NCBI RefSeq assembly: GCF_014637725.1
Contig: NZ_BMFC01000002.1
Location: 434,907 to 498,906, forward strand
From: Marivita lacus
GTDB taxonomy: Bacteria; Pseudomonadota; Alphaproteobacteria; Rhodobacterales; Rhodobacteraceae
DNA length: 64,000 nt
Direction of reading: 5' to 3'
This document shows positions 47,173 to 61,105 of this stretch, in pieces. Below the pieces are notes generated by a model. That model worked only from the letters and a program-made list of their open reading frames with translations, did not search any database and was not told the DNA's origin. Positions within the stretch are counted from its first letter, which is position 1, and every line of letters begins with the position of its first letter. The translations under genes and the position numbers were made by a program.

Positions 47173-47691
47173 TCAGCCGATACCGCGCAAGCGAAGGTCG
47201 TATGTCACCATGTCAGGTGCCCAGCTTGGCGCAGGTGCAAAGAGATCCCGCCGGGCCCCCAGCCTTTTCGCCAACCTTTGTGACCGATGATTGTTTTCAG
47301 CGATCCGGATCAACATACGGTCGAAACCCGGGTCCCGGAGGATATGGTGCAAATAGGCTGTTGCTGCTTCATATGCATATCCTCGCGCTTCGTAGGTTCC
47401 GTTCCATATCGCCCATGTCAGGTCAGGGGGTTCTTCCAAGGTCAGCCTGAGCGCCCCCACATGCCCGATCGGTGCGTCGGACGCCTTGTCGATCATGACA
47501 AAGCGGCCACTGTCGCGCAGCGTCCAATGGCCAACCATGATCGCGAACTTTTCGAATGCGCCCACAGCATCATATGGGCCACCCACGAACGCGCTCCGGT
47601 CACTGGCGCAATAGGCGGTGTAGGCTGCAAGATGGTGTAGCTGGGGGCGCAGCAACACAAGACGCTCGGTTTCGATCATGGTGTTTTCCAT
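47173..47691 (-). CDS. GNAT-family N-acetyltransferase (RimJ/RimL type)
   Basis: 172-residue acetyltransferase. ETERLVLLRPQLHHLAAYTAY at the start, then TWAIWNGTYEARGYAYEAATAYLHHILRDPGFDRMLIRIAENNHRSQRLAKRLGAR, follow the RimJ/RimL pattern; the acetyl-CoA loop is the YEARGYAYEA region. The start may be 47691 or the ATG 12 bases inside (MIETERL), which has GGAAAA upstream. It is the last gene of the creatininase operon, 28 bp after the isoaspartyl peptidase. Its substrate may be an amine product of the pathway, but that is a guess. Confidence 0.85.
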   Translation of the reverse strand: MENTMIETERLVLLRPQLHHLAAYTAYCASDRSAFVGGPYDAVGAFEKFAIMVGHWTLRDSGRFVMIDKASDAPIGHVGALRLTLEEPPDLTWAIWNGTYEARGYAYEAATAYLHHILRDPGFDRMLIRIAENNHRSQRLAKRLGARRDLFAPAPSWAPDMVTYDLRLRGIG

Positions 47692-47719
47692 GCTCAGGTT
47701 CGGCGGGCCCAAAGCCAAG

Positions 47720-48643
47720 TCAGCGGTAGATCAACGTGCTCAGGGGCAGGTCACTTCCAACCGACCCACGGTACATGCCTTCACAGTTGAACGGCATCGC
47801 GATCCGGCCTGCCGCGTCGACCGCGATCACCCCGCCCGATCCGTCATTCGGAGCAAGATCGTTCATGACGACAAAGTCCGCCGCCTGCTCCACGGTTTCC
47901 CCGAGATGGCGCATCCGGGCGCTGATTTCGGCGGCTGCGGTCCAGCGGGTGAAGATCTCGCCATGCCCCGTCCCGGATACGGCACAGCTTGCGTCATCAG
48001 CGAATGACCCCGCGCCGATGCAGGGCGTATCCCCGACGCGGCCCGGTGCCTTGGCGGTCATCCCTCCGGTCGAGGTCGCTGCCGCCACATGGCCGTGACT
48101 GTCGCAGGCAACCGCACCAACCGTGCCATGACGGCGGGCGGGGTCGTCGTTTTCCGCGCCTTTTGCGCGCATCTCCAGTGTCTCTTGCAACGCATCCCAG
48201 CGGGCTTGCGTGAAGAAATAGGGTGCCTCTTCAAAGGGCAGCCCCGCATCGCGCGCGATCCTTAGGGCGTTGTCGCCGATGAGCATGACATGCTCGGTCC
48301 GCTCCATTATGGCGCGGGCGGCGCGGATGGGGTTGCGCGGCCCGAACAGACCGGCAACAGCCCCGGCCCGCCGGTTCGCCCCGTCCATGATGGCGGCATC
48401 CATTTCCTGCTTGCCTTCGGCGGTGAACACCGCGCCGCGCGCTGCGTTGAACAAAGGCTCATCCTCCAGCGCGCACACCGCCTCGGTGACGGCGTCCAGT
48501 GCGGCTCCGCCCTGCTTCAGCACGGCCTCACCAGCTTCGAGCGCACGGGCAAGCCCGGCATGGTAGGCGGTTTCCAGTTCGGGGGTCATCCTGGATTTCA
48601 GGATGGTTCCGGCACCGCCATGAACGGCAAGAGCATAGGTCAT
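47720..48643 (-). CDS. Isoaspartyl peptidase / plant-type L-asparaginase
   Basis: 307-residue N-terminal-nucleophile hydrolase precursor. MTYALAVHGGAGTI opens the protein as in the family, and autocleavage should occur before Thr174 in RRHGTVGAVACDSHGHVAAATSTGGM. The small subunit then has IGAGSFADDASCAVSGTGHGE. The enzyme removes beta-linked aspartate from isoaspartyl dipeptides and can deamidate asparagine. The start overlaps the stop of the deacetylase-like gene (ATGA). Confidence 0.93.
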   Translation of the reverse strand: MTYALAVHGGAGTILKSRMTPELETAYHAGLARALEAGEAVLKQGGAALDAVTEAVCALEDEPLFNAARGAVFTAEGKQEMDAAIMDGANRRAGAVAGLFGPRNPIRAARAIMERTEHVMLIGDNALRIARDAGLPFEEAPYFFTQARWDALQETLEMRAKGAENDDPARRHGTVGAVACDSHGHVAAATSTGGMTAKAPGRVGDTPCIGAGSFADDASCAVSGTGHGEIFTRWTAAAEISARMRHLGETVEQAADFVVMNDLAPNDGSGGVIAVDAAGRIAMPFNCEGMYRGSVGSDLPLSTLIYR

Positions 48644-49539
48644 GAGTGTCCTTTCAGTCCTGCCGTGCGGGCACAGTGGCGCGCGATGTCGGCATGAGTT
48701 GCGACCCAGCAATCGCCCTTGGCGGCGATACGGTCGAGTAGGGTTTCGAGGATGAACATCCGGCTGCGGTAGCCGATGACATGCGGATGCATGGTCAACA
48801 GGAACAACCCGCCCTCGGCATAGGCGCCTTCGAATTCGCGGGTGAAGATGTCGAGAACGGCCTCGGGTGGCGTGTAGGGTCGCTGCGCCCCGAAGCGGTT
48901 CATCATGAAATAGACCGCGTCGTCGCGAATCCATTCCACCGGCAATTCGACGATGCCGGTAGGGTCGCCATCCGCCACGATTTCGTAGGGGTCGTCATCG
49001 GCGAAAAGCGAACTGTCATAGAGCAACCCCATCTCGCGGGCGATGGCCAATGTGTTGGGGCTGTAATCCCAGGAGGGCGTGCGCATGCCCACCGGACGGG
49101 TGCCGGTGATGGCTTCCAGCGTGTCGGCGGCGCGCAGCATCAGGTCGCGCTCTGTGGTGGCGTCGAGACGCGAATTGACCTCGTGAATCCAGCCATGCAA
49201 CCCGATCTCGTGTCCGTCCTGCACCAGCTCCTGCTGCTCTTCGGGGTGCAGCAGCGCCGACACGGCCGGGACGAAAAAGCTGGCCTTGACGCCATGCCGA
49301 TCAAGGGCTGCGCGGATGCGCGGGATGCCGCGGCGCGTACCATACTCGCCCCAGGACAGGCGCGCCGGAGACAGGCCACCATCGCGCAATTCGTTGGTTT
49401 CGTGATCGCTGTCAAAGGACAGCGCGACGGCGCAGCGCGCGCCGCCGGGCCATGTCGCGGGTTTCAGGTTGCGTCCGGCACGAACCTGTCCGACCGTCGC
49501 GCGCCAGGTGGCTTCGTCCCATTCATGCGGCTCGGTCAT
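48640..49539 (-). CDS. Polysaccharide-deacetylase-fold hydrolase, cyclic-imidase/PuuE-like
   Basis: 299-residue NodB-fold metal hydrolase. The first motif is SFDSDHE (41-47) instead of the TFDDG of chitin deacetylases, and the second is HGWIHE (115-120), with MRTPSWDYSPNTLAIA and MHPHVIGYRSRM later. This variant, also seen in cytosolic peptidoglycan deacetylase-like, PuuE allantoinase and cyclic-imide hydrolases, acts on amide rings rather than sugars in some members. No signal peptide, so the substrate is cytosolic. It overlaps both operon neighbours by 4 bp. Confidence 0.85.
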   Translation of the reverse strand: MTEPHEWDEATWRATVGQVRAGRNLKPATWPGGARCAVALSFDSDHETNELRDGGLSPARLSWGEYGTRRGIPRIRAALDRHGVKASFFVPAVSALLHPEEQQELVQDGHEIGLHGWIHEVNSRLDATTERDLMLRAADTLEAITGTRPVGMRTPSWDYSPNTLAIAREMGLLYDSSLFADDDPYEIVADGDPTGIVELPVEWIRDDAVYFMMNRFGAQRPYTPPEAVLDIFTREFEGAYAEGGLFLLTMHPHVIGYRSRMFILETLLDRIAAKGDCWVATHADIARHCARTAGLKGHS

Positions 49540-50285
49540 GCGTGGCCCCCGTCGACCGACAGGATCTGCCCGGTGATCCACCCGGCCCGGTCCGATGCCA
49601 GAAAGGCAACGGCATCGGCGATATCCTCGGCGCGGCCAAGACGGCGCATGTGGATGCCCTCGACGATCTGTTTCTGCCGGTCCCGACCGAACGCATCCCA
49701 TTGACGCTCGGTTGAGGGATTGGACAGGACAAAGCCCGGCGCCACGGAATTCACCGTCACCCCGTGCGGGCCAAGCTCCAGCGCAAGCTGGCGTGTCAAC
49801 CCGACCAGCGCGTGCTTTGCCGAGGCATAGGCCTGAATCCCGGTCAGGCTTGACCGCAGACCTGCCCCCGACGAGATCGTCAGGATACGCCCCCAGCCGC
49901 GCGCCTTCATGCCCGGTGCCGCGGCTTGCGCGCACCACATCGCGGCATCGACATTGGCGGCGAAGATCGCACGCCAGTCGTCTTCCGAGATTTCCTCGAT
50001 CGGGCGACCAGCCTGGCCCCGCACACCGCCTGCCGCGGTTACAAGCCCGTCGATGCGCCCATGGCGCGCTTCGATATCCGCAATGACGGCATGCGCGCCC
50101 TCGCGGCTGCCCAGATCGGCGGCATGAGTGGAGGCATGATCGGCAACGCGGGACAGTCCGTCTGCGTCGATGTCGATGGCGGCAACGGTCGCTCCGGCCT
50201 CGGCCAGCGTGGCGACGATGGCGCGCCCGATCCCCTGGGATGCCCCGGTGACCGCAAAGACGCGGTTTTTGAAGCTCAGTTGCAT
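49536..50285 (-). CDS. Short-chain dehydrogenase/reductase
   Basis: 249-residue SDR. TGASQGIG (13-20) binds the dinucleotide, with AAGG in the NNAG position, catalytic Ser in LTISSGAGLRSSL, Tyr-Lys in YASAKHALVG and the C-terminal SDRAGWITGQILSVDGGHA. The DID after the second strand favours NAD(H). Substrate unknown; from its place it may oxidise or reduce a hydroxy/oxo acid made from the imported compound. It overlaps the genes on both sides (10 bp and 4 bp). Confidence 0.9.
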   Translation of the reverse strand: MQLSFKNRVFAVTGASQGIGRAIVATLAEAGATVAAIDIDADGLSRVADHASTHAADLGSREGAHAVIADIEARHGRIDGLVTAAGGVRGQAGRPIEEISEDDWRAIFAANVDAAMWCAQAAAPGMKARGWGRILTISSGAGLRSSLTGIQAYASAKHALVGLTRQLALELGPHGVTVNSVAPGFVLSNPSTERQWDAFGRDRQKQIVEGIHMRRLGRAEDIADAVAFLASDRAGWITGQILSVDGGHA

Positions 50286-51292
50286 AGCGGCACCATCAGA
50301 TCGACAAGGTCGGCGGATTGCGCGCGGCGGCCATCCTCGATGTCATGGATCAATTCGACAAGCCGGGACAGCGTCGGTGTCTTCACACCGTGCTTTTCAC
50401 CAAGCGCGACCAGAAGACCCACCTGCGCATCGACCTCGGTGCGCCGCTTGCGGACAGCGAGATCGCGCCAGATCCCGGAATGCGTCTTGGCGGTGTGTCG
50501 GTTGTGCTCGACCATCGCGGCCAGCGAGGCATTCATCCCGGCCTTGTCCGCTTTCAGAAACGCATGAGGATCAAACCCGTTGAATCCAAGCGGGCGGATG
50601 TTCTGGGCGTTCGCGAGGCGCATGACCTCATGTCCAAGCGCCTGATAAACGGCCCGATGATCCGGTTCAGCCATCGCGTCAGACATCGACAGCGGCGTGA
50701 GGGCTGTTGCAAAAAGCAACGCACCATAGCCCAGCTTGCCCCACAGATAGCCCCAGATGTTGTCGGTCAGAACCGCCTCAGGTTCGATAATGCACAAAAG
50801 CGCGTGGATCTCGCGAACCCGGTCGGTCATACGCCCATCGAGTTCGCCCACGGCCACGGCAGCCCGATTGCCATAGAGGATGCGCCCCGGCTCCAGCCAA
50901 TCGGCCCCGTAATTGACAAAACAGCCCACCGTGTTTTCCGCGCCGATCCGGTCGGCGATGATGATCTCGTTCAGACCATTCTGGGCCGAAACAATGTATC
51001 CGCCCGGTGCCAGATGCGGGATCAGCATGTCCAGAGCGGCTTCGGTGTGATGCGCTTTCACCGCAAGGAAGATGCGCGAAAACTGACCTTGCAATTCAGT
51101 CGGAGTGCTGGCCGGCAATACCTGCGTGAAGGTTTCGACAGGGCCTTCGACATGCAAGCCGTCGCTGCGCATGGCATCGACATGGGCTTCGACGATATCG
51201 ACCATGTGCACCGCATGTCCGGCACGGGCGAGATAGGCGCCGAGGATGCCCCCTATGGCTCCGGCGCCCCAGATCAGGATCGGCTCGCTCAT
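50276..51292 (-). CDS. Ketopantoate reductase (ApbA/PanE) family dehydrogenase
   Basis: 338-residue two-domain dehydrogenase. The N-terminal Rossmann domain has WGAGAIGGILGAYLARAGH (9-27), FLAVKAHHT and SAQNGLNE, and the C-terminal helical domain has NIWGYLWGKLGYGALLFATALT with the expected Lys/Asn. It is longer than typical PanE (about 300) and sits in a catabolic operon, so ketopantoate itself is unlikely; this family reduces assorted 2-oxo acids. The start was placed at MSEPILIWG, overlapping the creatininase gene stop by 4 bp. Confidence 0.87.
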   Translation of the reverse strand: MSEPILIWGAGAIGGILGAYLARAGHAVHMVDIVEAHVDAMRSDGLHVEGPVETFTQVLPASTPTELQGQFSRIFLAVKAHHTEAALDMLIPHLAPGGYIVSAQNGLNEIIIADRIGAENTVGCFVNYGADWLEPGRILYGNRAAVAVGELDGRMTDRVREIHALLCIIEPEAVLTDNIWGYLWGKLGYGALLFATALTPLSMSDAMAEPDHRAVYQALGHEVMRLANAQNIRPLGFNGFDPHAFLKADKAGMNASLAAMVEHNRHTAKTHSGIWRDLAVRKRRTEVDAQVGLLVALGEKHGVKTPTLSRLVELIHDIEDGRRAQSADLVDLMVPLCN

Positions 51293-51990
51293 GCCCAGTC
51301 GCCTTCGAGCAGGCTGCGTGTCTCTTCCACGGCAACCGACCAGAGTTTGTCGGTGTCGGCCTCGGGTTTCTGGTATACCCCGCCGTAATTGCCGTCTCCG
51401 ATCAGCGCGCGCACTCCGGCTGCGTTGCGATCCCGCAGGCGGTCGAAGGGTACGAAGGGTTTTTGCGCATCGGGCAGTTCGCGGCCCGGAAGCCGGGTCC
51501 AGGGAAAGTTTTCCATCCAGGATGCATGCGAGGCGACGGGGTCGATTTCCTGCACGCAGGCCCATGTCTGCGGCGCGCGCCACCAGTCGTGGAACCGGCA
51601 GCGGGCGCCCTCGTTGGCTTCCATCCATTCCATGGTGACGGGTTGCACCGGGCTGTTGCCGCCATGGCCGTTGACGATGAGAATGCGGCGAAACCCGGTG
51701 GCATACAGACTGTCGAGGATGTCGCGCAGCAGCGCAGCATATGTCGCAAGCTTGAGCGACACACTTCCTGGGAAGGCCATGAAATAGGGCGTCAGGCCGT
51801 AGGCGACCGCAGGAAAGACCGGCACGCCAAGTGGCTCTGCGGCATCAGCGGCGACTTTCTCGGAGAGGATGGAATCCACCGACAGGGACAGGTAGGCATG
51901 CTGCTCTGTCGATCCCAAGGGCAGGACGCAGCGGTCGTCCGTTTCGAGATAGCGTTCAACCTCGAACCAGTTGCTTTCGGAAATTTTCAA
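51289..51990 (-). CDS. Creatininase-family amidohydrolase
   Basis: 233-residue metal-dependent amidohydrolase. LPLGSTEQHAYLSLSVDS holds Glu29, His31 and Asp39, matching the metal ligands of creatininase with one residue less between the last two. GLTPYFMAFPGSVSL and VNGHGGNSPV follow the family. Members hydrolyse creatinine, formamides or small amide bonds; the target here is unknown. It overlaps the gntR stop and the next gene start by 4 bp each. Confidence 0.9.
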   Translation of the reverse strand: MKISESNWFEVERYLETDDRCVLPLGSTEQHAYLSLSVDSILSEKVAADAAEPLGVPVFPAVAYGLTPYFMAFPGSVSLKLATYAALLRDILDSLYATGFRRILIVNGHGGNSPVQPVTMEWMEANEGARCRFHDWWRAPQTWACVQEIDPVASHASWMENFPWTRLPGRELPDAQKPFVPFDRLRDRNAAGVRALIGDGNYGGVYQKPEADTDKLWSVAVEETRSLLEGDWA

Positions 51991-52988
51991 GAATTCTGCC
52001 CCTTATGGTCTGGAGACCGGCTGCGGCAGGCATCGATTGCCGGCAGAAGGTCTGTTTCTATGGCATGGCTGTCGGGTGTGTGCCGGTATTCGATGGCGGT
52101 CTGATCGGGACGCATGTCGCGACGCAGATCCTCGGCCCCGGTCGAGTGGATGACCACGTCCGCGCGAGACGTGACCTCGGACAGGGTGTCGTCTTCCCAG
52201 ACCGCCGCGGTGACGCGGGTGACATGGGGCGCAAAGCGCAGGATGCCGGCCCGCATGACCGGCAGGAATTCCGGGAAATACGAGACGATCGCGACCTGCG
52301 CCTGTGGCGATATCGCCGCAAGCGCGATCCGCGTTGCCTCTTTGGGAATGAGGGTGATTCCCACAACCGGCAGGCCCGGAAAATAGGACTGCGCCTCGAC
52401 GCGCAGCGTCTTCGGCGCGACGACAAGCCCGATCCCTTCGGGGCGGTTCCGGGCCAGTTGCTCGGTCGTGCGCGCGATGATTTCGTCGCCGGCGCGCAGG
52501 TAGGGTCGAATGACCTCTGCATAGGCTTCGGTTGCGTCCTGAAACGTCCCCAACATCAGAAGCCGGACATGGCCCGGACGCTCCGGTGCGGTGGAAACAC
52601 GGTAGGCAAGCTCTGCCCGCGACAGGCCCACCTCCGCGCCGAGCCGGACCAGCTCGCCGATCCGGCGCTCGATGTCACGAAGGGATTTCGCATGGTGGTG
52701 CGATACACCCCCATCGGCGACGAAGGTGCCAGTTCCGACGCGTCCATGCAGGTGACCTGCCTCTTGCAAGGCGGCGTAGACGTTGCTTACCGTGACGGGT
52801 GACAGTCCAAGGTGACTCGCCAAACGCCGCACGGACGGCAGGCGCGTGCCGGGCGGGATATCTCCTGACGCGATCCCGTATTCCAAAGCGCCACGCAGCT
52901 GAACCGAGACCGAGACCGAAGACGTCCTGTCGAGCGCGAGCGCCAGCCGTTCGAAAGTGTTTCCGATATGTGTCTGGTCTTGATCCAT
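51987..52988 (-). CDS. GntR-family transcriptional regulator with an unusual effector domain
   Basis: 333-residue regulator. Residues about 22-90 are a GntR winged helix (SVSVQLRGALEYGIASGDIPPGTRLPSVRRLASHLGLSPVTVSNVYAALQEAGHLHGRVGTGTFV). The remaining 240 residues are not the FadR, HutC or MocR type that I know; strands such as HVRLLMLGTFQD, GIGLVVAPKTLRV, PVVGITLIP and ADVVIHSTG suggest a periplasmic-binding-like fold. It opens the amidohydrolase operon, is divergent from the ABC importer operon, and its start codon lies within one of two matching operator-like sites. Confidence 0.9.
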   Translation of the reverse strand: MDQDQTHIGNTFERLALALDRTSSVSVSVQLRGALEYGIASGDIPPGTRLPSVRRLASHLGLSPVTVSNVYAALQEAGHLHGRVGTGTFVADGGVSHHHAKSLRDIERRIGELVRLGAEVGLSRAELAYRVSTAPERPGHVRLLMLGTFQDATEAYAEVIRPYLRAGDEIIARTTEQLARNRPEGIGLVVAPKTLRVEAQSYFPGLPVVGITLIPKEATRIALAAISPQAQVAIVSYFPEFLPVMRAGILRFAPHVTRVTAAVWEDDTLSEVTSRADVVIHSTGAEDLRRDMRPDQTAIEYRHTPDSHAIETDLLPAIDACRSRSPDHKGQNS

Positions 52989-52997
52989 ACTGTATCA
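52981..52997. promoter_or_regulatory. Operator-like site 1 (overlaps gntR start)
   Basis: TGATCCATACTGTATCA, a TGAT...ATCA dyad that includes the gntR start codon on the minus strand. It matches site 2 in the same intergenic region except for one inserted base and two substitutions, which suggests the binding site of the GntR regulator. Confidence 0.65.
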
Positions 52998-53103
52998 ATG
53001 ACGGATAACAGTTGGCCGCTCAAGCAAAATTATGAGCATTTAGCTTTTAAATTACGCGTTTTACGTCGAAAGAAAAATAAATTGGTTGACGGAGCGCGCC
53101 ATA

Positions 53104-53121
53104 TGATCCCGTAGTGTATCA
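53104..53121. promoter_or_regulatory. Operator-like site 2 (upstream of the importer operon)
   Basis: TGATCCCGTAGTGTATCA, 32 bp upstream of the binding-protein start codon and the same orientation as site 1. The arms TGATCC and TGTATCA are identical in both. It probably lets one regulator control both divergent operons. Confidence 0.65.
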
Positions 53122-53152
53122 CGCCACTATAACAATCCAACGGAGAGGAAAC

Positions 53153-54727
53153 ATGGTCAGACATACACTCAAGATGGGGGCTGCCACGGCGCTCTTGCTG
53201 TCTTTGACACCTGCCGCGTTCGCGCAGGAGTTGGTCATCGGATTGCGCGCAGGTCCTGATTCGATCGATCCGCACTGGTCGACGCTTGGCAGCCAGGCCG
53301 AAGCCCTGCGCCACATCTATGATACGCTTGTCGATGTCGATGACACGCTCCAGCTCCAGCCCGGTCTTGCCGAAAGCTGGGAAGCCGTCGACGACACCAC
53401 CTGGGATTTCAAACTGCGCGAAGGCGTCACGTTCCATGACGGCACGCCCTTTACCGCTGAGGACGCAAAGTTCTCGATCGACCGGATTCCGGAAGTGACC
53501 GGCCCGATGTCGATGACGCTTTACACGAAATACGTGGAATCTGTCGAAGTGATCGACGACTACACGCTGCGCGTGAACACCAAAGGCATTGCTCCGGCGC
53601 TGCCGAACGATTTCACCCGCCTGTTTGTCGTGCCGTCGGAAACCGGTGCAGGCGTGGGCAACGAGGAGTTCAACTCGGGCGATGCCGCAATCGGCACCGG
53701 CCCCTACCGTTTCGTGTCCTGGGAACCCAAGGGCGACCTTGTGCTGGATCGCTACGAGGATCACTGGCGCGGTGAAACGCCGTGGGAACGTGTCGTGCGC
53801 AAGGAAATCCCGGATGACGCCGCACGCGTCGCAGCCCTGCGTTCGGGCCAGGTGGACCTGATCAACTACGTGCCTGCGACCGACTACCTGTCGATGCAGA
53901 ACAATTCCGAACTCGAGACCTTCATTTCGGATTCGGTCTACATCCTGAACGTCCAGCCCTCGGTCAAGGACGAAGAGCCGCAGCCGATCCGCGTGAACGG
54001 CGAAGAGGTCGAAGGCAACCCGCTTCAGGATCTGCGTGTACGCAAAGCCCTTGATCTGGCCATCAATCGCGACGTGCTTGTTAATGTCGTGCTCGAAGGG
54101 CTGGGCACTCCGGCGAACCAGCTGATGCCCGAAGGCTTTTTCGGCTATACCGACGCGCTGGGAGCGAAAGAGTACGACATCGAGCAGGCCAAGGCGCTGC
54201 TGGCCGAGGCCGGGTATCCGGACGGGTTCGAGGTCGATTTCACCTGCACCAACAACCGCGTGCCCGGCGATGCCGTCGTCTGCGAGGCTTTGGCACAGAT
54301 GTGGTCGCGTCTGGGTCTGACGGTGAACGCGCAGGCACTGAACGGCACCGTGTTCTTCCCGGCTGCGGCCAACGAGGAATACACGATGGCGATGTCCGCC
54401 TGGGGCACGCTGACCGGTGAAGCCGCCTATACCTATGGCGCGATGATCCACAGCAAGGACCCGGAAAAGGGCTTCGGCAACTTCAACCGCACCGGCTATT
54501 CGAACCCCGAGTTCGACGAGGTTTTCGTCCGCGGAACCCAGACGCTGGATGCCGAAGAGCGACGGAAGCTTTATGAAGAAGCGTCCTTGATCGCGATGGA
54601 AGACCGGGCGCTGATCCCGACGGTCATCCTGCAATCCGTCTGGGCGGCTGATGCGGGTACGCTGACCTTCACCCCGCGTGTCGATCAGGAAACCCGCGCC
54701 TACGAGATCCGGCCCGTCAATCAGTAA
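53153..54727 (+). CDS. Dipeptide/peptide-type ABC substrate-binding protein
   Basis: 524-residue family 5 periplasmic binding protein. It has a signal peptide (MVRHTLKMGAATALLLSLTPAAFAQ), then ELVIGLRAGPDSIDPHWSTLG, LAESWEAVDDTTWDFKLREGVTFHDGTPFTAEDAKFSIDRI (family signature), and DLRVRKALDLAINRDVLV. It heads a complete DppABCDF-type operon, so peptides or peptide-like compounds are the likely ligands. GGAGAGGA precedes the start. A hairpin after the gene should limit expression of the downstream genes relative to this one. Confidence 0.93.
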   Translation: MVRHTLKMGAATALLLSLTPAAFAQELVIGLRAGPDSIDPHWSTLGSQAEALRHIYDTLVDVDDTLQLQPGLAESWEAVDDTTWDFKLREGVTFHDGTPFTAEDAKFSIDRIPEVTGPMSMTLYTKYVESVEVIDDYTLRVNTKGIAPALPNDFTRLFVVPSETGAGVGNEEFNSGDAAIGTGPYRFVSWEPKGDLVLDRYEDHWRGETPWERVVRKEIPDDAARVAALRSGQVDLINYVPATDYLSMQNNSELETFISDSVYILNVQPSVKDEEPQPIRVNGEEVEGNPLQDLRVRKALDLAINRDVLVNVVLEGLGTPANQLMPEGFFGYTDALGAKEYDIEQAKALLAEAGYPDGFEVDFTCTNNRVPGDAVVCEALAQMWSRLGLTVNAQALNGTVFFPAAANEEYTMAMSAWGTLTGEAAYTYGAMIHSKDPEKGFGNFNRTGYSNPEFDEVFVRGTQTLDAEERRKLYEEASLIAMEDRALIPTVILQSVWAADAGTLTFTPRVDQETRAYEIRPVNQ

Positions 54728-54735
54728 ATCAAACC

Positions 54736-54762
54736 GGGCGTCCCTGACCGGGGCGCCCTTTT
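54736..54762 (+). terminator. Attenuating hairpin after the binding-protein gene
   Basis: Interrupted stem GGGCG-t-CCC / GGG-g-CGCCC (54736-54740 with 54754-54758 as outer arms) followed by TTTT, in the 54-bp gap before the permease gene. Confidence 0.7.
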
Positions 54763-54781
54763 CCACACACAGCGAGGCCTC

Positions 54782-55756
54782 ATGCTCGGATTTGTCATCA
54801 GTCGGCTCTTGCAGGCGATTGTCGTTGTCTTTGCGATGTCGATCATCGTCTTCGTGGGCGTCTATGCGATCGGCAACCCGATCGACGTGATGATCGACCC
54901 GGGCGCCACGGCAGAGATCCGTGAAAACCTGATCCGGCAATACGGTCTCGACCAGCCGCTTTGGCGGCAATACATCACGTTCCTTGCCAATGTCGCGCAG
55001 GGCGATCTGGGCCGCTCCATGGTCTACAACACGTCCGTTACCGGGCTGGTGTTCTCGAGGCTTCCCGCGACGCTTGAACTGGTGCTGGTCGCGATCACGA
55101 TCGCGACCGTGATCGGCATCCCCGCCGGTATCTATGCCGGCTACCGTCCGAACAGCGTCGCGTCGAAGGCGATCATGGCCCTGTCGATCCTCGGTTTCTC
55201 GGTGCCGACCTTCTGGATCGGCATGTTGCTCATCATGGCCTTCGCGGTCGAACTTGGCTGGCTGCCCTCGGGCGGTCGCGGCGACGAGGGGACGATCTTC
55301 GGGATTTCGACCTCGCTTGCCACCGCGAATGGCTGGAGCCACGTCATCCTGCCCGCGATCAACCTGTCACTGTTCAAGATGGGTCTGATGATCCGACTTG
55401 CGCGCGCCGGAATGGTCGAGGCGATGCAGACCGATTACGTCAAGTTCGCCCGCGCGCAGGGTCTGCCCGACCGGCAGATCGTCTTCAGCCATGTCTTGCG
55501 CAACATCTCGATCCCGATTGTTACGGTGTTCGGGCTCGAGCTTGGCTCGACGCTGGCCTTTGCCGTCGTCACCGAAAGCGTCTTCAACTGGCCGGGGGTC
55601 GGCAAGCTGATCATCGACTCGATCCTGCAACTCGACCGTCCGGTGATGGTCACCTACCTGATCCTTGTCGTGATCCTGTTCGTCATCATCAATTTCACCG
55701 TCGATATCGTCTACGCCCGGCTTGACCCGCGCGTGCGGCTGGGAGGATCGAAATGA
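54782..55756 (+). CDS. Peptide ABC transporter permease (DppB type)
   Basis: 324-residue inner-membrane permease with about six hydrophobic helices. It starts MLGFVISRLLQAIVVVFAMS, has the DppB-type region DPGATAEIRENLIRQYGLDQPLWRQYITFLANVAQGDLG, and the EAA-like loop MVEAMQTDYVKFARAQGLPDRQIVFSHVLRN that contacts the ATPases. Its stop overlaps the next permease start by 4 bp. Confidence 0.94.
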   Translation: MLGFVISRLLQAIVVVFAMSIIVFVGVYAIGNPIDVMIDPGATAEIRENLIRQYGLDQPLWRQYITFLANVAQGDLGRSMVYNTSVTGLVFSRLPATLELVLVAITIATVIGIPAGIYAGYRPNSVASKAIMALSILGFSVPTFWIGMLLIMAFAVELGWLPSGGRGDEGTIFGISTSLATANGWSHVILPAINLSLFKMGLMIRLARAGMVEAMQTDYVKFARAQGLPDRQIVFSHVLRNISIPIVTVFGLELGSTLAFAVVTESVFNWPGVGKLIIDSILQLDRPVMVTYLILVVILFVIINFTVDIVYARLDPRVRLGGSK

Positions 55757-56691
55757 GCGACGTTGCCACGACCACGGGCGAAACACTCGCCGAACCCGCT
55801 GCCGCGCCGATCGAAACCCGCGCGATGCGGCTGAAGAACTTCTGGTCCGATTTCCGGGCTTCAAAAGTGGCCGTGGCCGCGCTGGTCGTGATCGTCACGC
55901 TGCTTCTGCTGGCGTTCGGTGCGCCGCTCGTCGCGCCGCAAGACCCTTATGACATGGCGATGCTGGACTGGCTTGATGCGTTCCTGCGTCCCGGAGAGGT
56001 GGGAACCGGCGGTTATGTGCATGTTCTGGGCACCGACAATGCGGGTCGCGACATGTTGTCGGCGATCTTCTACGGGCTGCGCACCAGCTTCACCATTGGC
56101 CTGTCCGCTGGCGCGCTGGCGCTGGTCATCGGGATTTCGGTTGGCCTGACGGCGGCCTATTTCGGCGGGCGTGTGGAATCCCTGCTGATGCGGATCATTG
56201 ACCTTCAGTTGTCCATGCCCGCGATCCTGCTGGCATTGGTTCTGGTCGCGGTCCTGGGGCAAGGCGTCATCCAGATCATCCTAGCCCTTGTTGTTGCGCA
56301 ATATGCCTATTTCGCACGTACCACCCATGGTGCGGCCACGGTCGAACGCGGCAAGGACTATATCGAAGCCGCGCGCGCGACACCCCTGCCGACCTGGCGT
56401 GTGCTGTTCAAGCATCTTCTGCCCAACGTGCTGCCGCCGCTGATCGTCGTGGCGACGGTGCAGGTGGCGGCGGCGATCGCGCTCGAGGCGACACTGTCCT
56501 TTCTCGGTGTCGGCCTTCCCCTGACCGAACCTTCGCTCGGATCGCTCATCTCGAACGGGTTCAAATACATCCATTCCGACCGCTACTGGCTGTCCATCTA
56601 TCCGGGGATCTTCCTGATGATCACTGTCGTCGCCATCAATCTTGTCGGAGACCAGGTCCGCACCGTGCTTGATCCGAGGCATGCGCGATGA
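55753..56691 (+). CDS. Peptide ABC transporter permease (DppC type)
   Basis: 312-residue permease. After a cytosolic N-terminus come an initial helix (VAVAALVVIVTLLLLAFGAPLVAPQDPYDM), HVLGTDNAGRDMLSAIFYGLRTSFTIGL (a DppC/OppC signature), and the EAA loop VERGKDYIEAARATPLPTWRVLFKHLLPNVLPPLIV. It overlaps the neighbouring genes by 4 bp on each side. Confidence 0.95.
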   Translation: MSDVATTTGETLAEPAAAPIETRAMRLKNFWSDFRASKVAVAALVVIVTLLLLAFGAPLVAPQDPYDMAMLDWLDAFLRPGEVGTGGYVHVLGTDNAGRDMLSAIFYGLRTSFTIGLSAGALALVIGISVGLTAAYFGGRVESLLMRIIDLQLSMPAILLALVLVAVLGQGVIQIILALVVAQYAYFARTTHGAATVERGKDYIEAARATPLPTWRVLFKHLLPNVLPPLIVVATVQVAAAIALEATLSFLGVGLPLTEPSLGSLISNGFKYIHSDRYWLSIYPGIFLMITVVAINLVGDQVRTVLDPRHAR

Positions 56692-57653
56692 GTGCGGCGC
56701 TTGACATACAAGGACTGACGACGCGCTTTGACACGCGCGGCGGCTCAGTCACGGCTGTCGACAATGTGAGCTTTTCCGTCGACCGGGGCCGCATCATGGG
56801 CCTTGTCGGGGAAAGCGGGTCCGGCAAATCCGTCACCGGCTTTTCCATTCTGGGCCTGATCGACGAACCGGGCCGCGTGACGGATGGCCGGGTGATGGTC
56901 GAGGATACGGATCTGCGCAGCCTGTCACCGGATCATCTGCGTTCCATGCGGGGACGCAAGGTGTCGATGGTGTTCCAGGACCCGATGATGACCCTCAACC
57001 CGGTGTTGCGGATCGGCGACCAGATGGCGATGGCCGTGCGTGTGCATGAGCCGATGTCCAAGACCAGGGCGCTCGAGCGGGCACGCGATGCGCTTGGTAC
57101 GGTGGGTATCCCGTCGCCCGAGGAACGGCTCGCCGCCTATCCGCACCAATTGTCCGGCGGGATGCGTCAACGCGTGGCCATCGCAACGGCCTTGCTGCAC
57201 CGGCCTGCCGTCATCATCGCGGACGAGCCGACAACCGCGCTCGACGTGTCGATCCAGGGCCAGATCCTCGCAGAGGTGCGCCGTCTGGCGGACGAGACGC
57301 ATACCGCGATTGTCTGGATCACGCATGATCTTGCGGTGGTCTCTTCGCTCGCTGACGACATCTGCGTGATGTATGCGGGCAAGATCGTCGAACGCGGCAC
57401 CGCCGAGGAGGTGATCGGCCGGCCGCGTCATCCCTATACGCGCGGCCTTCTTGACTCCGTGCCGGGTCAACACGCGCCCGGCTCGCATCTGCCGCAAATT
57501 CCCGGCTCCACACCGCAATTGTCGCACCTGCCGTCGGGCTGCCCGTTCCGCAACCGCTGTCCCCGCGCGACCGACGTTTGCGCCACGACCCCACCGCTCG
57601 CCCGGTTCGGCGACCACACCGCACTTTGCCACCATCCGATGGAGACCACATGA
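56688..57653 (+). CDS. Peptide ABC transporter ATPase (DppD type)
   Basis: 321-residue ABC ATPase. Walker A GESGSGKS, Q-loop VFQDPMMTLNP, signature LSGGMRQRVAIA, Walker B VIIADEPTTALD and the H-loop WITHDLAV are all intact. The C-terminal oligopeptide-transporter extension carries the Cys cluster CPFRNRCPRATDVCA typical of DppD/OppD iron-sulfur-binding ends. It overlaps both neighbours by 4 bp. Confidence 0.95.
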   Translation: MSAALDIQGLTTRFDTRGGSVTAVDNVSFSVDRGRIMGLVGESGSGKSVTGFSILGLIDEPGRVTDGRVMVEDTDLRSLSPDHLRSMRGRKVSMVFQDPMMTLNPVLRIGDQMAMAVRVHEPMSKTRALERARDALGTVGIPSPEERLAAYPHQLSGGMRQRVAIATALLHRPAVIIADEPTTALDVSIQGQILAEVRRLADETHTAIVWITHDLAVVSSLADDICVMYAGKIVERGTAEEVIGRPRHPYTRGLLDSVPGQHAPGSHLPQIPGSTPQLSHLPSGCPFRNRCPRATDVCATTPPLARFGDHTALCHHPMETT

Positions 57654-58669
57654 CCGCGCCGCTTCTTGAAATCGATACCGTCTCCAAGCGGTTCCCGCTG
57701 AAGGCCACGCTGGCCGACAAGGTCGCCGCGCGTCTGGCCGGGCGTCGCGCTGGCGGGGCGGTCCATGCCGTGACGGACGTGTCTCTGACCGTGGATCGCG
57801 GTGAAGTGGTTGGCATTGTGGGCGAATCGGGATGTGGAAAGTCGACCTTGGGCCGTATCGTATCGGGCATCTACGCGCCCACCGAGGGCACGGTGCTGCT
57901 TGATGGCAAGCCGATTGCCACGGGACGGGAAGACCACGTCAACAAGCTGACAACACGGGTGCAGATGATCCACCAGGATCCCTTCGCAAGCCTCAATCCC
58001 CGGATGAAAGTGGGCGAAACCATCTCGGAAGGTCCGCGCACCCACGGCATCGTGTCCGCCTCTGAAGTCACCGACCGGACACGCGCGCTGCTTGAACAGG
58101 TGGGACTCAGGGGCGACTATGCCGACCGCCTGCCGCACCAGTTTTCCGGTGGCCAGAGGCAGCGGATCGCCATCGCGCGCGCGCTCGCCATGCAGCCCGA
58201 TCTGCTGGTTCTCGACGAGGCGGTGGCCTCGCTGGACGTGTCGATCCAGGCGCAGGTCCTGAACCTGTTCCTCGATCTGCGCCGCGATCTTGGCCTGACG
58301 GCGCTTTTCATCAGCCACGACCTGTCCGTGGTGCGTCATGTCTGCGACCGGGTCGCGATCATGTATCTTGGCCGCGTGGTCGAGCTGGCCAGCGCGGAGC
58401 GGCTCTATGCCGACCCCAAACACCCCTATACTCAGGCGCTCTTTGCCTCGGTGCCGACGCTGGGCACGGGGCGGCAGGATTTTCGCCCGATCAAGGGCGA
58501 GATCCCGTCGCCCATCGACCCGCCGCCGGGCTGTGCGTTCCACCCGCGCTGTCCATTCGCCGGTCCGCGATGCCGCGCAGAAATTCCGCGCCTGACCGAA
58601 GCAGGATCAGGGCGCACCGTGGCGTGTCACCTGAACGATGGTGGCGTGGGTCAGGAAGCGGCAGCATGA
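57650..58669 (+). CDS. Peptide ABC transporter ATPase (DppF type)
   Basis: 339-residue partner ATPase. Walker A GESGCGKS, Q-loop IHQDPFASLNPRM, signature FSGGQRQRIAIA, Walker B LLVLDEAVASLD (Ala where Pro-Thr/Ser is usual, EAV in place of EPV) and H-loop FISHDLSVV are present, with a C-terminal CAFHPRCPFAGPRC cluster. The start at 57650 was chosen for the 4-bp overlap with the preceding gene. The stop overlaps the carboxypeptidase start. Confidence 0.94.
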   Translation: MTAPLLEIDTVSKRFPLKATLADKVAARLAGRRAGGAVHAVTDVSLTVDRGEVVGIVGESGCGKSTLGRIVSGIYAPTEGTVLLDGKPIATGREDHVNKLTTRVQMIHQDPFASLNPRMKVGETISEGPRTHGIVSASEVTDRTRALLEQVGLRGDYADRLPHQFSGGQRQRIAIARALAMQPDLLVLDEAVASLDVSIQAQVLNLFLDLRRDLGLTALFISHDLSVVRHVCDRVAIMYLGRVVELASAERLYADPKHPYTQALFASVPTLGTGRQDFRPIKGEIPSPIDPPPGCAFHPRCPFAGPRCRAEIPRLTEAGSGRTVACHLNDGGVGQEAAA

Positions 58670-60192
58670 ACGATCTGAACAATCTTGTGGCCCGTCTGAA
58701 CGACGTGCTCTGTGCCGTGAATACACTGGTGTGGGATTCGCGCACCATGATGCCGAAAGGCGGCGCCGAAACGCGGGGTCACCAGATCGCAACGCTCAAG
58801 GGCATCGCGCGGACCATGATCCTTTCCGCCGAGATGCGCGACGCGGGTGCCGCCGCGCTGGAGCAGACATCCGGGCGCGATGCGTTCGATCCCGAGCGTC
58901 GCGCCGCCGAGGCGGTGCAGGCAGCGATCCTGCACCATGAACGTATTCCAGCCGACCTGTTGCGCGCTCAGGCAGAACAGAGCACGCTGGCCGGCGCGGC
59001 CTGGGCCGAAGCCCGCGCGGCTGCCGATTTCGCGATTTTCCGACCTTATCTGGAACGGACGGTTGCGCTGGCGCGCGAACAGGCCGAGGCGCTTGGGTAC
59101 AAGGATCATCCCTACGACCCGATGGTCGCAATCTTCGAACCGCGCGAGACCGCCGCATCGCTCGACGCCTTCTTCAAGACCCTTCGCGCAGGGATCCTGC
59201 CCATCCTCGATGCCGCAAGGGGCCGGCCCAAGCTGCGCACCGACTTCCTGTATCGCGACTATCCCGAGGCGGGTCAGAAGGCGTTTGCTCAGGAAACGGC
59301 GCGCCTGCTGGGGCTGGATGACAGCCGCAGCCGGCTTGACACCACGGTGCACCCGTTCGAGATCAGTTTTACCCGAAATGACGTCAGGATCACCTCGCGC
59401 TGGGTCCGCAACTACCTGCCGATGTCGATCTTCGGCTCGATCCACGAAACCGGTCACGCGCTTTATGAACTGGGGGCTGACCCGTCGATCACCAGAACCG
59501 CGCATGCCACCGACATGATCGGGCTTTATGCCGTGGCCGGAACGAGTTTCGGCATGCATGAAAGCCAGTCGCGCCTGCTGGAAAACCACGTCGGCCGAAG
59601 CCCGGCCTTCTGGGCGCAGAACTTTGCGCGGCTGCGCGATACCTTTCCCGACCAGCTTTCCGATGTGACCGAGGGTGACTTCATCGCCGCGGTGAACCGG
59701 GTCGAACCCGGTCTCATCCGGGTCGAGGCAGACGAGCTGAGCTATGACATCCACATCATGCTGCGTGTCGAGATCGAAATGGCGCTGATGGACGGATCGC
59801 TGAAGGTGGCTGACATCCCTGAGGTCTGGAATGCCGCGATCCAGCGCGATCTTGGCCTGACAGTGCCCGGCGACGATCTGGGTTGTCTTCAGGATGTGCA
59901 TTGGTCGTCCGGATATATCGGGTCGTTCCCAACCTACACGATCGGCAATGTCACGGCGGCCCAGATCATGGCGCATCTCGACACCACGCGGCCGGATATC
60001 CGGGCCGATCTGGAAATGGCCGAAACGGCCTCCATCCGCGCGGCACTCGGGGATCTTGTCTGGCGACACGGCAGATCACGCAGCAGGGGTGAAATCCTGA
60101 CGTCGATCGGTGCAACCCCGAACGATCCGACAGCCTATCTCGACTACCTCTCGGGGAAATTCGCTCCGGCGCTGGCATCGTCCAGCGCCTGA
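58666..60192 (+). CDS. M32-family metallocarboxypeptidase
   Basis: 508-residue thermostable carboxypeptidase 1-type enzyme. The HEXXH zinc motif is HETGH at 260-264 (FGSIHETGHALYELG), preceded by the family HPF motif in TTVHPFEISF and RITSRW and followed by GMHESQSRLLEN and the GLIRVEADELSYDIHIMLR region. It removes C-terminal residues from peptides in the cytosol, presumably those brought in by the importer to which it is coupled (4-bp overlap). No signal peptide. Confidence 0.95.
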   Translation: MNDLNNLVARLNDVLCAVNTLVWDSRTMMPKGGAETRGHQIATLKGIARTMILSAEMRDAGAAALEQTSGRDAFDPERRAAEAVQAAILHHERIPADLLRAQAEQSTLAGAAWAEARAAADFAIFRPYLERTVALAREQAEALGYKDHPYDPMVAIFEPRETAASLDAFFKTLRAGILPILDAARGRPKLRTDFLYRDYPEAGQKAFAQETARLLGLDDSRSRLDTTVHPFEISFTRNDVRITSRWVRNYLPMSIFGSIHETGHALYELGADPSITRTAHATDMIGLYAVAGTSFGMHESQSRLLENHVGRSPAFWAQNFARLRDTFPDQLSDVTEGDFIAAVNRVEPGLIRVEADELSYDIHIMLRVEIEMALMDGSLKVADIPEVWNAAIQRDLGLTVPGDDLGCLQDVHWSSGYIGSFPTYTIGNVTAAQIMAHLDTTRPDIRADLEMAETASIRAALGDLVWRHGRSRSRGEILTSIGATPNDPTAYLDYLSGKFAPALASSSA

Positions 60193-60193
60193 C

Positions 60194-61105
60194 ATGTCAA
60201 TGGACTTACTGAAACCCCACGCGGGTGTCACGGGCGCGGACAATCTGCGCGGCGCAATCCTGTTGGCGATTGCCGCTGTCCTGTTCACGCTCGAGGCGAC
60301 ACTGGTGCGGGCCACGGCGCCTTTGGCCAACGAGGCGCAGATCGTGTTCTTCCGCTCCGCCGCGCAGCTTGCGCTGTCGCTCGTGATCCTCTGGCGGATC
60401 GGGGACTGGGGCCGCCTTGCGACATCGCGGCCGGGACTTCACATCATCCGAGGGCTGACCAGCCTGTCGATGTGGTGGCTGTATTATGCCAGTTTTCGTC
60501 TTCTGGACTTGGCGCTTGCGACGACCTTGACCTTCACGACCTCGCTTTTCGTCGTGGCCCTCGCGGCCCCGCTGCTGGGCGAACACGTGGGTCGGGTCCG
60601 CTGGGCCGCGACGATCATCGGATTTGTCGGCATTGCCGTAGCGGTCGGGCCCGCAGCGGATGTCTCGATCCACGGGGTGGGCATCGGTCTGCTGGCCGCC
60701 GCGGGCGGTGCGGCCATCGTCATCCTGAACCGCCTGCTGGGCCGGACCGAGAACACCATGACGATCATGACCTGGATCGGCGTGGTCACGACCATCGGCT
60801 CGACCCCGGTTGCATGGCTTCTGTGGGAGCCGCTTGCCCTGCGGGATGCGGCGCTGGTCTGTCTCACGGGTTTGCTGGGCGCCTTCGGGATGCTGCTGAC
60901 AATCGAGGCCTACCGGGTTGGAGAGGCCAGCGCGCTGGCCCCGGTGCCCTATATCCGCTTCGTCGTTGCCGCGGTGGTGGGCATGGTCTTTTTCGGCGAA
61001 ACTCCGGGGGCCGCACTTCTGATCGGCGCCTCCCTCGTGGTGGGGGCGTCAATCCTCGCGGTGCGTCACGAGATGCGGCAGGGGCTGACCGCGCCGCATC
61101 GCTGA
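60194..61105 (+). CDS. EamA/DMT-family transporter
   Basis: 303-residue membrane protein with ten hydrophobic segments in two EamA repeats (AILLAIAAVLFTLEATLVRATAPLANEAQIVFFRSAAQL and GIGLLAAAGGAAIVILNRLLGRTENTMTIMTWIG), each ending with the usual GE(H/T) helix (LLGEHVGRVRWAATIIGFVGI; FFGETPGAALLIGASLVV). Such carriers often export amino acids or metabolites. It follows the carboxypeptidase gene by one base and closes the importer operon, so it may export an end product. Confidence 0.88.
   Translation: MSMDLLKPHAGVTGADNLRGAILLAIAAVLFTLEATLVRATAPLANEAQIVFFRSAAQLALSLVILWRIGDWGRLATSRPGLHIIRGLTSLSMWWLYYASFRLLDLALATTLTFTTSLFVVALAAPLLGEHVGRVRWAATIIGFVGIAVAVGPAADVSIHGVGIGLLAAAGGAAIVILNRLLGRTENTMTIMTWIGVVTTIGSTPVAWLLWEPLALRDAALVCLTGLLGAFGMLLTIEAYRVGEASALAPVPYIRFVVAAVVGMVFFGETPGAALLIGASLVVGASILAVRHEMRQGLTAPHR

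Follow-up and report, generated by a model that had tools for sequence, protein, structure and literature searches.

The 64,000-nucleotide stretch of Marivita lacus DNA studied here (the window; contig region G000:C2:434907-498906 of a genome of 4.77 Mb) carries a divergent gene cluster in which a creatininase-family amidohydrolase, two dehydrogenases and a peptidase are encoded next to a peptide-type ATP-binding cassette (ABC) importer and a GntR-type regulator. The cluster is a real and widespread module, and apparently an undescribed one; no description of the gene combination was found in the open-licence PMC literature, and PMC4837290, in the excerpts available, uses the terms for unrelated genes. 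Two dipeptidase families replace one another around its core and do not occur together in the loci collected, which is the strongest hint to its function. We tentatively read the cluster as a self-regulated catabolic module for a small peptide-like compound, taken up by the importer and broken down inside the cell, with beta-linked or cyclised peptides as the likely class of substrate, a reading whose chances we place slightly short of even.

Gene content of the cluster

The minus-strand operon runs, in the order of transcription, from a GntR-type regulator in which no aminotransferase domain was matched (51987..52988; PF00392) through the creatininase-family amidohydrolase, of NGHGGN type and with a TTG start (51289..51990; PF02633, 135 bits), an ApbA/PanE-like dehydrogenase whose substrate motif is altered (50276..51292; PF02558 and PF08546, matched in a longer open reading frame (ORF) of the same frame), a short-chain dehydrogenase (SDR; 49536..50285; PF13561/PF00106) and a NodB-fold metal hydrolase assigned from an AlphaFold2 model to the PuuE/imidase-like branch (48640..49539; PF01522), to an IaaA-like isoaspartyl peptidase of the Asparaginase_2 family (47720..48643; PF01112, 337 bits). 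The plus strand encodes a family-5 solute-binding protein (53153..54727; PF00496, matched in a longer ORF), the permeases DppB (54782..55756; PF00528/PF19300) and DppC (55753..56691; PF00528/PF12911), the ATPases DppD (56688..57653; PF00005/PF08352) and DppF (57650..58669; PF00005/PF08352, matched in the same frame in a longer ORF), all Dpp-like, then an M32 carboxypeptidase (58666..60192; PF02074, 533 bits) and an EamA transporter (60194..61105; PF00892). PF13302 was matched as well. All the named genes are intact ORFs with Pfam scores above the curated cut-offs, in agreement with the gene assignments of the first-pass annotation of this DNA.

Conservation in other bacteria

A total of 160 loci was collected, in which families were assigned by tblastn with proteins of the window and sample proteins; 127 deduplicated loci carry the creatininase, and 91 of them are complete, with at least 5.5 kb on either side. 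Seven same-contig duplicates were dropped before the 91-locus count and kept in the residue and motif counts. Unless said otherwise, the counts for the 91 loci are those within 7.5 kb. ORF clustering of the first 98 loci gave shadow ORFs from GC-rich DNA and served as a pointer only.

At least three importer parts are present in 89 of the 91 complete loci, the SDR in 82 (at 45% identity or more in 74 and below it in eight) and ApbA in 76. The first-pass annotation had named recurrence in other genomes as its own test, and both this recurrence and the place it gave to a peptide-type importer at the centre of the unit are borne out. IaaA is found in 62 loci and an M20 dipeptidase in 23, with no locus having both and six having neither; NodB is found in 58, 56 of them with IaaA. 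The IaaA and NodB enzymes that the annotation counted as parts of the unit are thus present and dispensable, given that the 23 loci have M20 instead and that six of the 62 IaaA loci lack NodB. Since loci L040-L119 were found via NodB, this table leans to the NodB/IaaA types, and a less biased view is given by the creatininase-seeded subset of 43 loci, 31 of them complete (window excluded, together with four weak or cut matches, G773, G744, G861 and G990, and a third G910 match). These 31 loci include the importer in 30, ApbA in 30, the SDR in 28, NodB in ten, IaaA in 12 and M20 in 15, again with both peptidases in none and neither in four.

Over the full length of the stretches, no creatininase-bearing locus among the 160 has IaaA and M20 together. 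This exclusivity suggests that two unrelated peptidases alternate within one pathway. A creatininase tree made by a quick method requires four changes between IaaA and M20, only one of which is forced by the starred branches, and repeated swapping is therefore likely, although not proven. Among the loci with neither peptidase, L202 has an M20 gene about 9 kb away and L201 an AstE/M14-type gene. An AstE/M14-type gene was considered as a third alternative and rejected, because in four of five loci (L178, L179, L182 and L209) it stands alongside the M20 dipeptidase, being alone only in L201.

The genes occur in several layouts. In layout A, which is that of the window and of Rhodobacterales, Martelella and Granulosicoccus metagenome-assembled genomes (MAGs), M32-DppFDCB-binding protein diverges from GntR-creatininase-ApbA-SDR-NodB-IaaA; a marine carrier of this layout is Sulfitobacter delicatus DSM 16477 (L051). 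Layout B has M32 and a more distant importer opposite GntR-creatininase-ApbA-SDR-M20, and layout C an importer opposite MarR-creatininase-ApbA-SDR-M20, usually with EamA. Layout D, seen in Bosea, Rhizobium and some Burkholderiaceae MAGs, has (SDR-ApbA)-IaaA-binding protein-MarR opposite creatininase-DppBCDF-NodB, with ApbA missing from several Rhizobium loci. M32 occurs in the layout of the window, in layout B and in Deinococcus (47 of the 91 complete loci, anywhere in the stretch), and the M20 partner is publicly annotated as "dipeptidase". In Microvirga ossetica (L182, 10693-11214), ApbA is annotated as an N-terminal fragment that overlaps the SDR gene.

Carriers are Alphaproteobacteria, some Beta- and Gammaproteobacteria MAGs, Deinococcus plasmids and, with a minimal set, Klebsiella plasmids. 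Four of the five Deinococcus loci inspected have the importer, GntR, creatininase, ApbA, SDR, M20, RraA and M32 in variable order; the fifth, which lies amid transposases, has of the set only the creatininase, an SDR-type gene and two binding proteins. In Klebsiella the creatininase is found in five plasmid records, and the two inspected (L180, L186) carry from the set only IaaA-importer opposite GntR-creatininase, with insertion sequences on both flanks in one plasmid and on one flank in the other. The E. coli genomes searched gave no near match.

The set behaves as an accessory and moving one, as indicated by its patchy distribution among genomes together with its plasmid copies. A sample of 292 genomes of the order was searched with limits of E<=1e-30 for the creatininase, E<=1e-40 for IaaA and E<=1e-60 for NodB, and the genes were found in 17, 20 and 19 genomes, respectively. 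Each pair of genes is common to nine genomes versus 1.1-1.3 expected (p of 5e-8 to 3e-7, relatedness ignored), and in eight of those nine all three lie inside one cluster. The sample includes four further genomes of this genus, in none of which any of the three genes was found; the closest named NodB match is from a Marivita MAG, at 97%. Among 72,556 plasmid records, the creatininase is present in 33 and the NodB gene in 30, absences from plasmids being judged by tblastn given that the PLSDB gene table is incomplete. An identical 12-gene order, with IaaA at one end and M32 at the other, is annotated on plasmids of Sulfitobacter, Alloyangia and Sagittula. In Sulfitobacter maritimus (L059, L060) the cluster lies on two contigs with equal identity values, perhaps a duplication, and in Alloyangia pacifica (L173, 23262-26888) the bhcABCD genes of the beta-hydroxyaspartate cycle are about 8 kb from it.

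The regulatory region

The 164 bp between the GntR gene and the binding-protein gene contain two operator-like sites that flank the divergent promoters. The first (TGTATCA-N7-ATAACA; 52991..53010) adjoins the GntR start, and the second (53115..53134) overlaps the promoter of the importer operon, for which conserved promoter-like elements (TTGAC ... TAGTGT; 53086..53117, plus strand) were found. An alignment of 50 such regions shows, in most of them, a TGT..CA-N7-.TAACA site after a TTGAC / TA.TGT promoter, with a second such site at the GntR start. Of 46 deduplicated regions, 42 match the site loosely (22 of them two or more times), versus a mean of 0.13 and a maximum of one of the 46 in shuffles, and 28 match it in a strict form.

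In the genome of the window a looser pattern has five matches and its backward control one, and TGTATCA-N7-ATAACA is found only at the two places in the cluster. A wide regulon was for this reason rejected, though weaker sites may exist. The view of the first-pass annotation that one regulator links the two operons is in line with this pair of sites: judged from the sequence, it is most likely that a single GntR protein acts on the two operons and on few other targets.

The creatininase-family protein

The AlphaFold2 model of the creatininase homologue has a mean predicted local distance difference test score (pLDDT) of 90.1, and Foldseek places it with creatininase-family entries at query template-modelling (TM) scores of 0.74-0.80 and E values of 1e-15 to 1e-10. 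The conserved E/H/D/H motif residues, which serve as metal ligands in the family, are kept. With these it resembles creatininase (EC 3.5.2.10), MftE and IolN; unlike them, it falls below the cut-offs of their models (73.5 versus 235 bits for the creatininase equivalog TIGR04448, with TIGR03964 and NF041098 also missed) and has Gly (NGHGGN) aligned with the Glu of NGHYEN, E122 in the numbering of the PDB titles, the active-site Glu of creatininase. Because of this replacement, the protein is not classed as a creatininase proper; with the motif residues kept, its mode of action is probably that of the amidohydrolases of the family.

The ring of imidazolone-modified arginine resembles creatinine, and the substrate might be an advanced glycation (Maillard) product, imidazolone-arginine peptides, with the creatininase opening the ring, the ApbA-like enzyme or the SDR oxidizing the carboxyalkyl part and peptidases releasing what is left. 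The creatininase fold, an ApbA-like enzyme without the ketopantoate Asn and the presence of a peptide importer with peptidases would all suit such a substrate, and one Klebsiella plasmid has an adjoining PfkB/SIS/LacI cluster that resembles an Amadori pathway. The other Klebsiella plasmid inspected lacks this neighbour, which was rejected as part of the system; glycation would also leave IaaA and NodB without a clear role, and the NGHYEN Glu is Gly, so that we consider it unlikely.

The NodB-fold protein

The model of the NodB protein has a pLDDT of 82.4, with low-confidence loops. Its structural ranks 1-10 are taken by 3rxz, PuuE (3cl6), 3s6o, 1z7a and HP0310 (3qbu), at query TM scores of 0.73-0.76, versus 0.38-0.57 for the polysaccharide deacetylases that rank lower, and the conserved D/H motif residues are kept. 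The model thus places the enzyme in the PuuE/imidase-like branch, in line with the cyclic-imidase-like NodB fold proposed at first pass. It shares fold and motif with the PuuE allantoinase and cyclic imide hydrolases, and differs in missing the cut-off of the PuuE equivalog domain TIGR03212 (93.3 versus 424.6 bits). HP0310 is related to the cyclic imidases, and the cyclic imidase HxnM resembles HP0310, according to the available excerpts of PMC9304392.

The family names of these two proteins, together with hydantoinase genes that adjoin NodB-SDR pairs in other genomes, would invite the idea of an incidental importer, with rings of the creatinine, allantoin, hydantoin or pyrimidine type as the substrates of creatininase and NodB. 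Such an assignment is highly improbable, as both scores are far under the creatininase and PuuE equivalog cut-offs and the creatininase is accompanied by the importer in 89 of the 91 loci and by IaaA or M20 in 85.

Pairs of NodB and SDR genes without a creatininase, which may form a ring-opening unit of their own, occur in L123, L124 and L174, near MFS transporters or hydantoinase/oxoprolinase genes. In L121 (1-4146; Rhizobium sp. CC-CFT758), genes for a further polysaccharide deacetylase, a gamma-glutamyltransferase (Ggt), importer ATPases and RidA adjoin the cluster, possibly as a sister system with Ggt replacing IaaA.

The peptidases and dehydrogenases

The solved relatives of the IaaA-like protein are 2zak of E. 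coli (252.6 bits, one chain) and 8dqm, RhIaaA (243.9 and 145.5 bits, two chains); the equivalog NF007589 is not reached (282.4 versus 567 bits). The catalytic Thr is conserved. T171, T189, R199, D202, T222 and G223 (numbering omits the first three residues) are present at 97% or more in 81 sequences and correspond to the Asp-binding residues of RhIaaA given in the part of PMC10206079 that was available. The HGTVGAV motif is found in 92 of 92 sequences; a Ser named in the same excerpts is Thr in the protein of the window and Thr or Ser in 91 of the 92, with Cys in one. By domain and residues the protein is a predicted beta-aspartyl dipeptide hydrolase, as the isoaspartyl peptidase call at first pass had it.

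No other IaaA homologue was found in the genome of the window, and the protein closely resembles RhIaaA of a cyanophycin gene cluster (PMC10206079, as excerpted). The genome also has a cyanophycinase and a cyanophycin synthetase, and the module might be a route for recycling or scavenging beta-Asp-Arg dipeptides from cyanophycin. The genes in question, together with a second Mur-ligase-like (CphA2-like) gene, stand in a row at 8425-13947 of L215 (G000:C7:8000-27000). They lie on another contig than the cluster, the M20-type loci lack IaaA, and ApbA, SDR and NodB would be superfluous for this purpose. As a general substrate cyanophycin was rejected, cyanophycinase being found in one of the 32 other cluster-bearing genomes tested (of 44 with the creatininase), and as an account of the module it is very unlikely.

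For the M20 partner from L161, the nearest solved relatives are a beta-Ala-His dipeptidase and a cytosolic non-specific dipeptidase, so that each of the two alternatives has enzymes acting on beta-type bonds in its family.

The ApbA-like protein matches both domains of its family and exceeds the cut-off of the subfamily TIGR00745 (148 versus 141.35 bits). Like ketopantoate reductase (PanE/ApbA), it has two domains and retains the Lys and Glu; unlike it, it reads K-L-G-Y-G in place of KxxxN, and the Gly at the place of the Asn (G190) is present at 97% or more in 88 sequences. This Asn binds the substrate in ketopantoate reductases and stands four positions past the catalytic Lys; the subfamily of the window lacks it, and an Asn stands near that place in the two solved sequences aligned.

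The binding protein and its relatives

The binding protein is characterized by the motif W[GA]TLTGE, found in all 111 aligned proteins at least 40% identical to it; those of layout B, Deinococcus and Klebsiella are more distant and lie outside this count. Within this motif, TGE is common to the window protein and GsiB and absent from the other four solved proteins aligned. Among its solved relatives AgaA comes fourth, after 5u4o, GsiB and a heme-binding protein.

The likeness to GsiB (165 bits, with the TGE motif) raises the question of a system for glutathione or gamma-glutamyl peptides, in favour of which the E. coli iaaA gene, encoded with gsiABCD (PMC10355420, in the portion available), and a Ggt gene near two loci would also speak. 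The equivalog cut-off of GsiB is missed by a wide interval (165.3 versus 594 bits), and in those annotated regions that were read Ggt does not recur regularly. We know of no role for the creatininase/ApbA/SDR core in glutathione use, and such a system appears quite improbable.

AgaA is the agropinic acid binding protein. An opine-like or lactam natural product could accordingly enter by an AgaA-type importer, be opened by creatininase and NodB and be oxidized by ApbA and SDR; many carriers are rhizobia or agrobacteria, and two dehydrogenases suit hydroxy-acid chemistry. The three relatives that outrank AgaA, together with M32, M20 and IaaA peptidases that indicate amino-acid amide bonds, argue against this, and a plant-tumour compound is unlikely given that some carriers are marine and others belong to Deinococcus, leaving the opine or lactam substrate with a small probability.

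The closest known arrangements are E. coli iaaA-gsiABCD and the cyanophycin scavenging loci, and neither explains the core. The former also encodes IaaA with an importer of the Opp/Dpp family and has the TGE motif in its binding protein, and differs in that the window protein misses the GsiB equivalog score. It is, to our knowledge, without creatininase, NodB, ApbA, SDR and a dedicated GntR regulator. The cyanophycin utilisation loci (cyanophycinase, IadA/IaaA and a transporter) likewise cluster an isoaspartyl dipeptidase with transport, according to the excerpts of PMC10206079; unlike them, the cluster of the window has no S51 peptidase, that is, no cyanophycinase, among its proteins in the Pfam scan.

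Gene junctions and neighbouring genes

The first-pass annotation stated that almost all genes overlap by 4 bp. This is correct for the core, with an exact 4-bp overlap at eight of 12 same-strand junctions, and does not extend over the whole span, where SDR and ApbA overlap by 10 bp, gaps of 54 bp and 1 bp separate the binding protein from DppB and M32 from EamA, and IaaA is 28 or 40 bp from a GNAT acetyltransferase gene (47173..47691, minus strand), as set by the choice of start codon. This GNAT gene, counted as a member by the annotation, was rejected and is judged to lie outside the system, as a match was found in only one of the 160 loci, the close relative L040. The EamA exporter, also named in the annotation, is a recurrent and optional member: it is present in 11 of the 91 loci, ten times at 43-52% identity and once at 31%, and almost all of these loci have the M20 layout; in the layout of the window, a close EamA (82%) is found only in L022. 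Upstream of the region, at 43329-45644 on the minus strand, lies a hybrid sensor kinase that combines PAS, HisKA, HATPase and receiver domains.

A possible pathway

The gene content and its conservation, the mutual exclusion of the two peptidases, the local pair of operator-like sites and the conserved folds and active sites are observations; what we infer about the reactions, their order and the substrate is as follows. A GsiB-like Opp/Dpp-family importer would take up a small peptide-like compound, the creatininase-family metal enzyme would hydrolyse a cyclic or unusual amide in it, and a peptidase would then release amino acids. In the variant of the window this may be IaaA, usually with the NodB-fold cyclic-amide hydrolase, and in the others a carnosinase-type M20 dipeptidase in the place of IaaA. 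M32 would trim C-termini, and the ApbA-like and SDR dehydrogenases would process an oxo- or hydroxy-acid part. Beta-linked or cyclised peptides are favoured by the peptide-type importer, the two dipeptidase families with some members that act on beta-type bonds, the cyclic-amide branch of NodB and the GsiB-like motif. The minimal Klebsiella set suggests that creatininase and IaaA are sufficient as a pair, and ApbA and SDR, with RraA in Deinococcus, suggest that a further oxo- or hydroxy-acid part is processed in most carriers.

In a bolder form, the cluster would be a modular pathway for cyclised and isopeptide peptides that crosses phyla, in which the creatininase opens an aminosuccinyl-like ring, either peptidase, M20 sometimes with an AstE/M14-type partner, cleaves a beta-type bond, and ApbA/SDR finish the modified residue. 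We regard this form as doubtful.

Several observations weigh against beta-linked or cyclised peptides as the substrate. The ApbA (76 of 91) and SDR (82 of 91) genes are more constant than IaaA and NodB and are unneeded for simple isoaspartyl cleavage. The linear scheme of the first-pass annotation, from succinimide opening through amide hydrolysis to beta-aspartyl cleavage, leaves both without explanation; its specific substrate, aged succinimide/isoaspartyl peptides, is unproven, and the two dehydrogenases fit it poorly. M20 dipeptidases of this kind also cleave ordinary dipeptides. With only 27-29% identity between the binding proteins of layout B and that of the window, the importer is of two kinds, and the RraA-like aldolase genes in four of the five Deinococcus loci hint at a more specialised carbon skeleton. 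Of the six complete loci with neither IaaA nor M20, L118, L189, L206 and L208 have no peptidase in the stretch; a scan of chosen ORFs from L118, L189, L202 and L206, and from L187 and L200 outside the six, found none, and none is annotated in L208. RhIaaA is a promiscuous beta-aspartyl dipeptidase in the available part of PMC10206079, and the presence of IaaA therefore fixes no substrate.

If a module for beta-linked or cyclised peptides is what these genes form, it would provide bacteria of several phyla with a portable and self-regulated use of peptides that ordinary peptidases may not finish, being isoaspartyl, cyclised or modified in other ways, and, in its bolder form, with a route dedicated to peptides that are damaged or unusual and enter from outside. 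It would also give first functions to subfamilies of creatininase, ApbA and NodB-fold proteins to which databases now give the names of enzymes that they probably are not. As IaaA and M20 replace each other exclusively while the core stays constant, the class of substrate can be tested directly.

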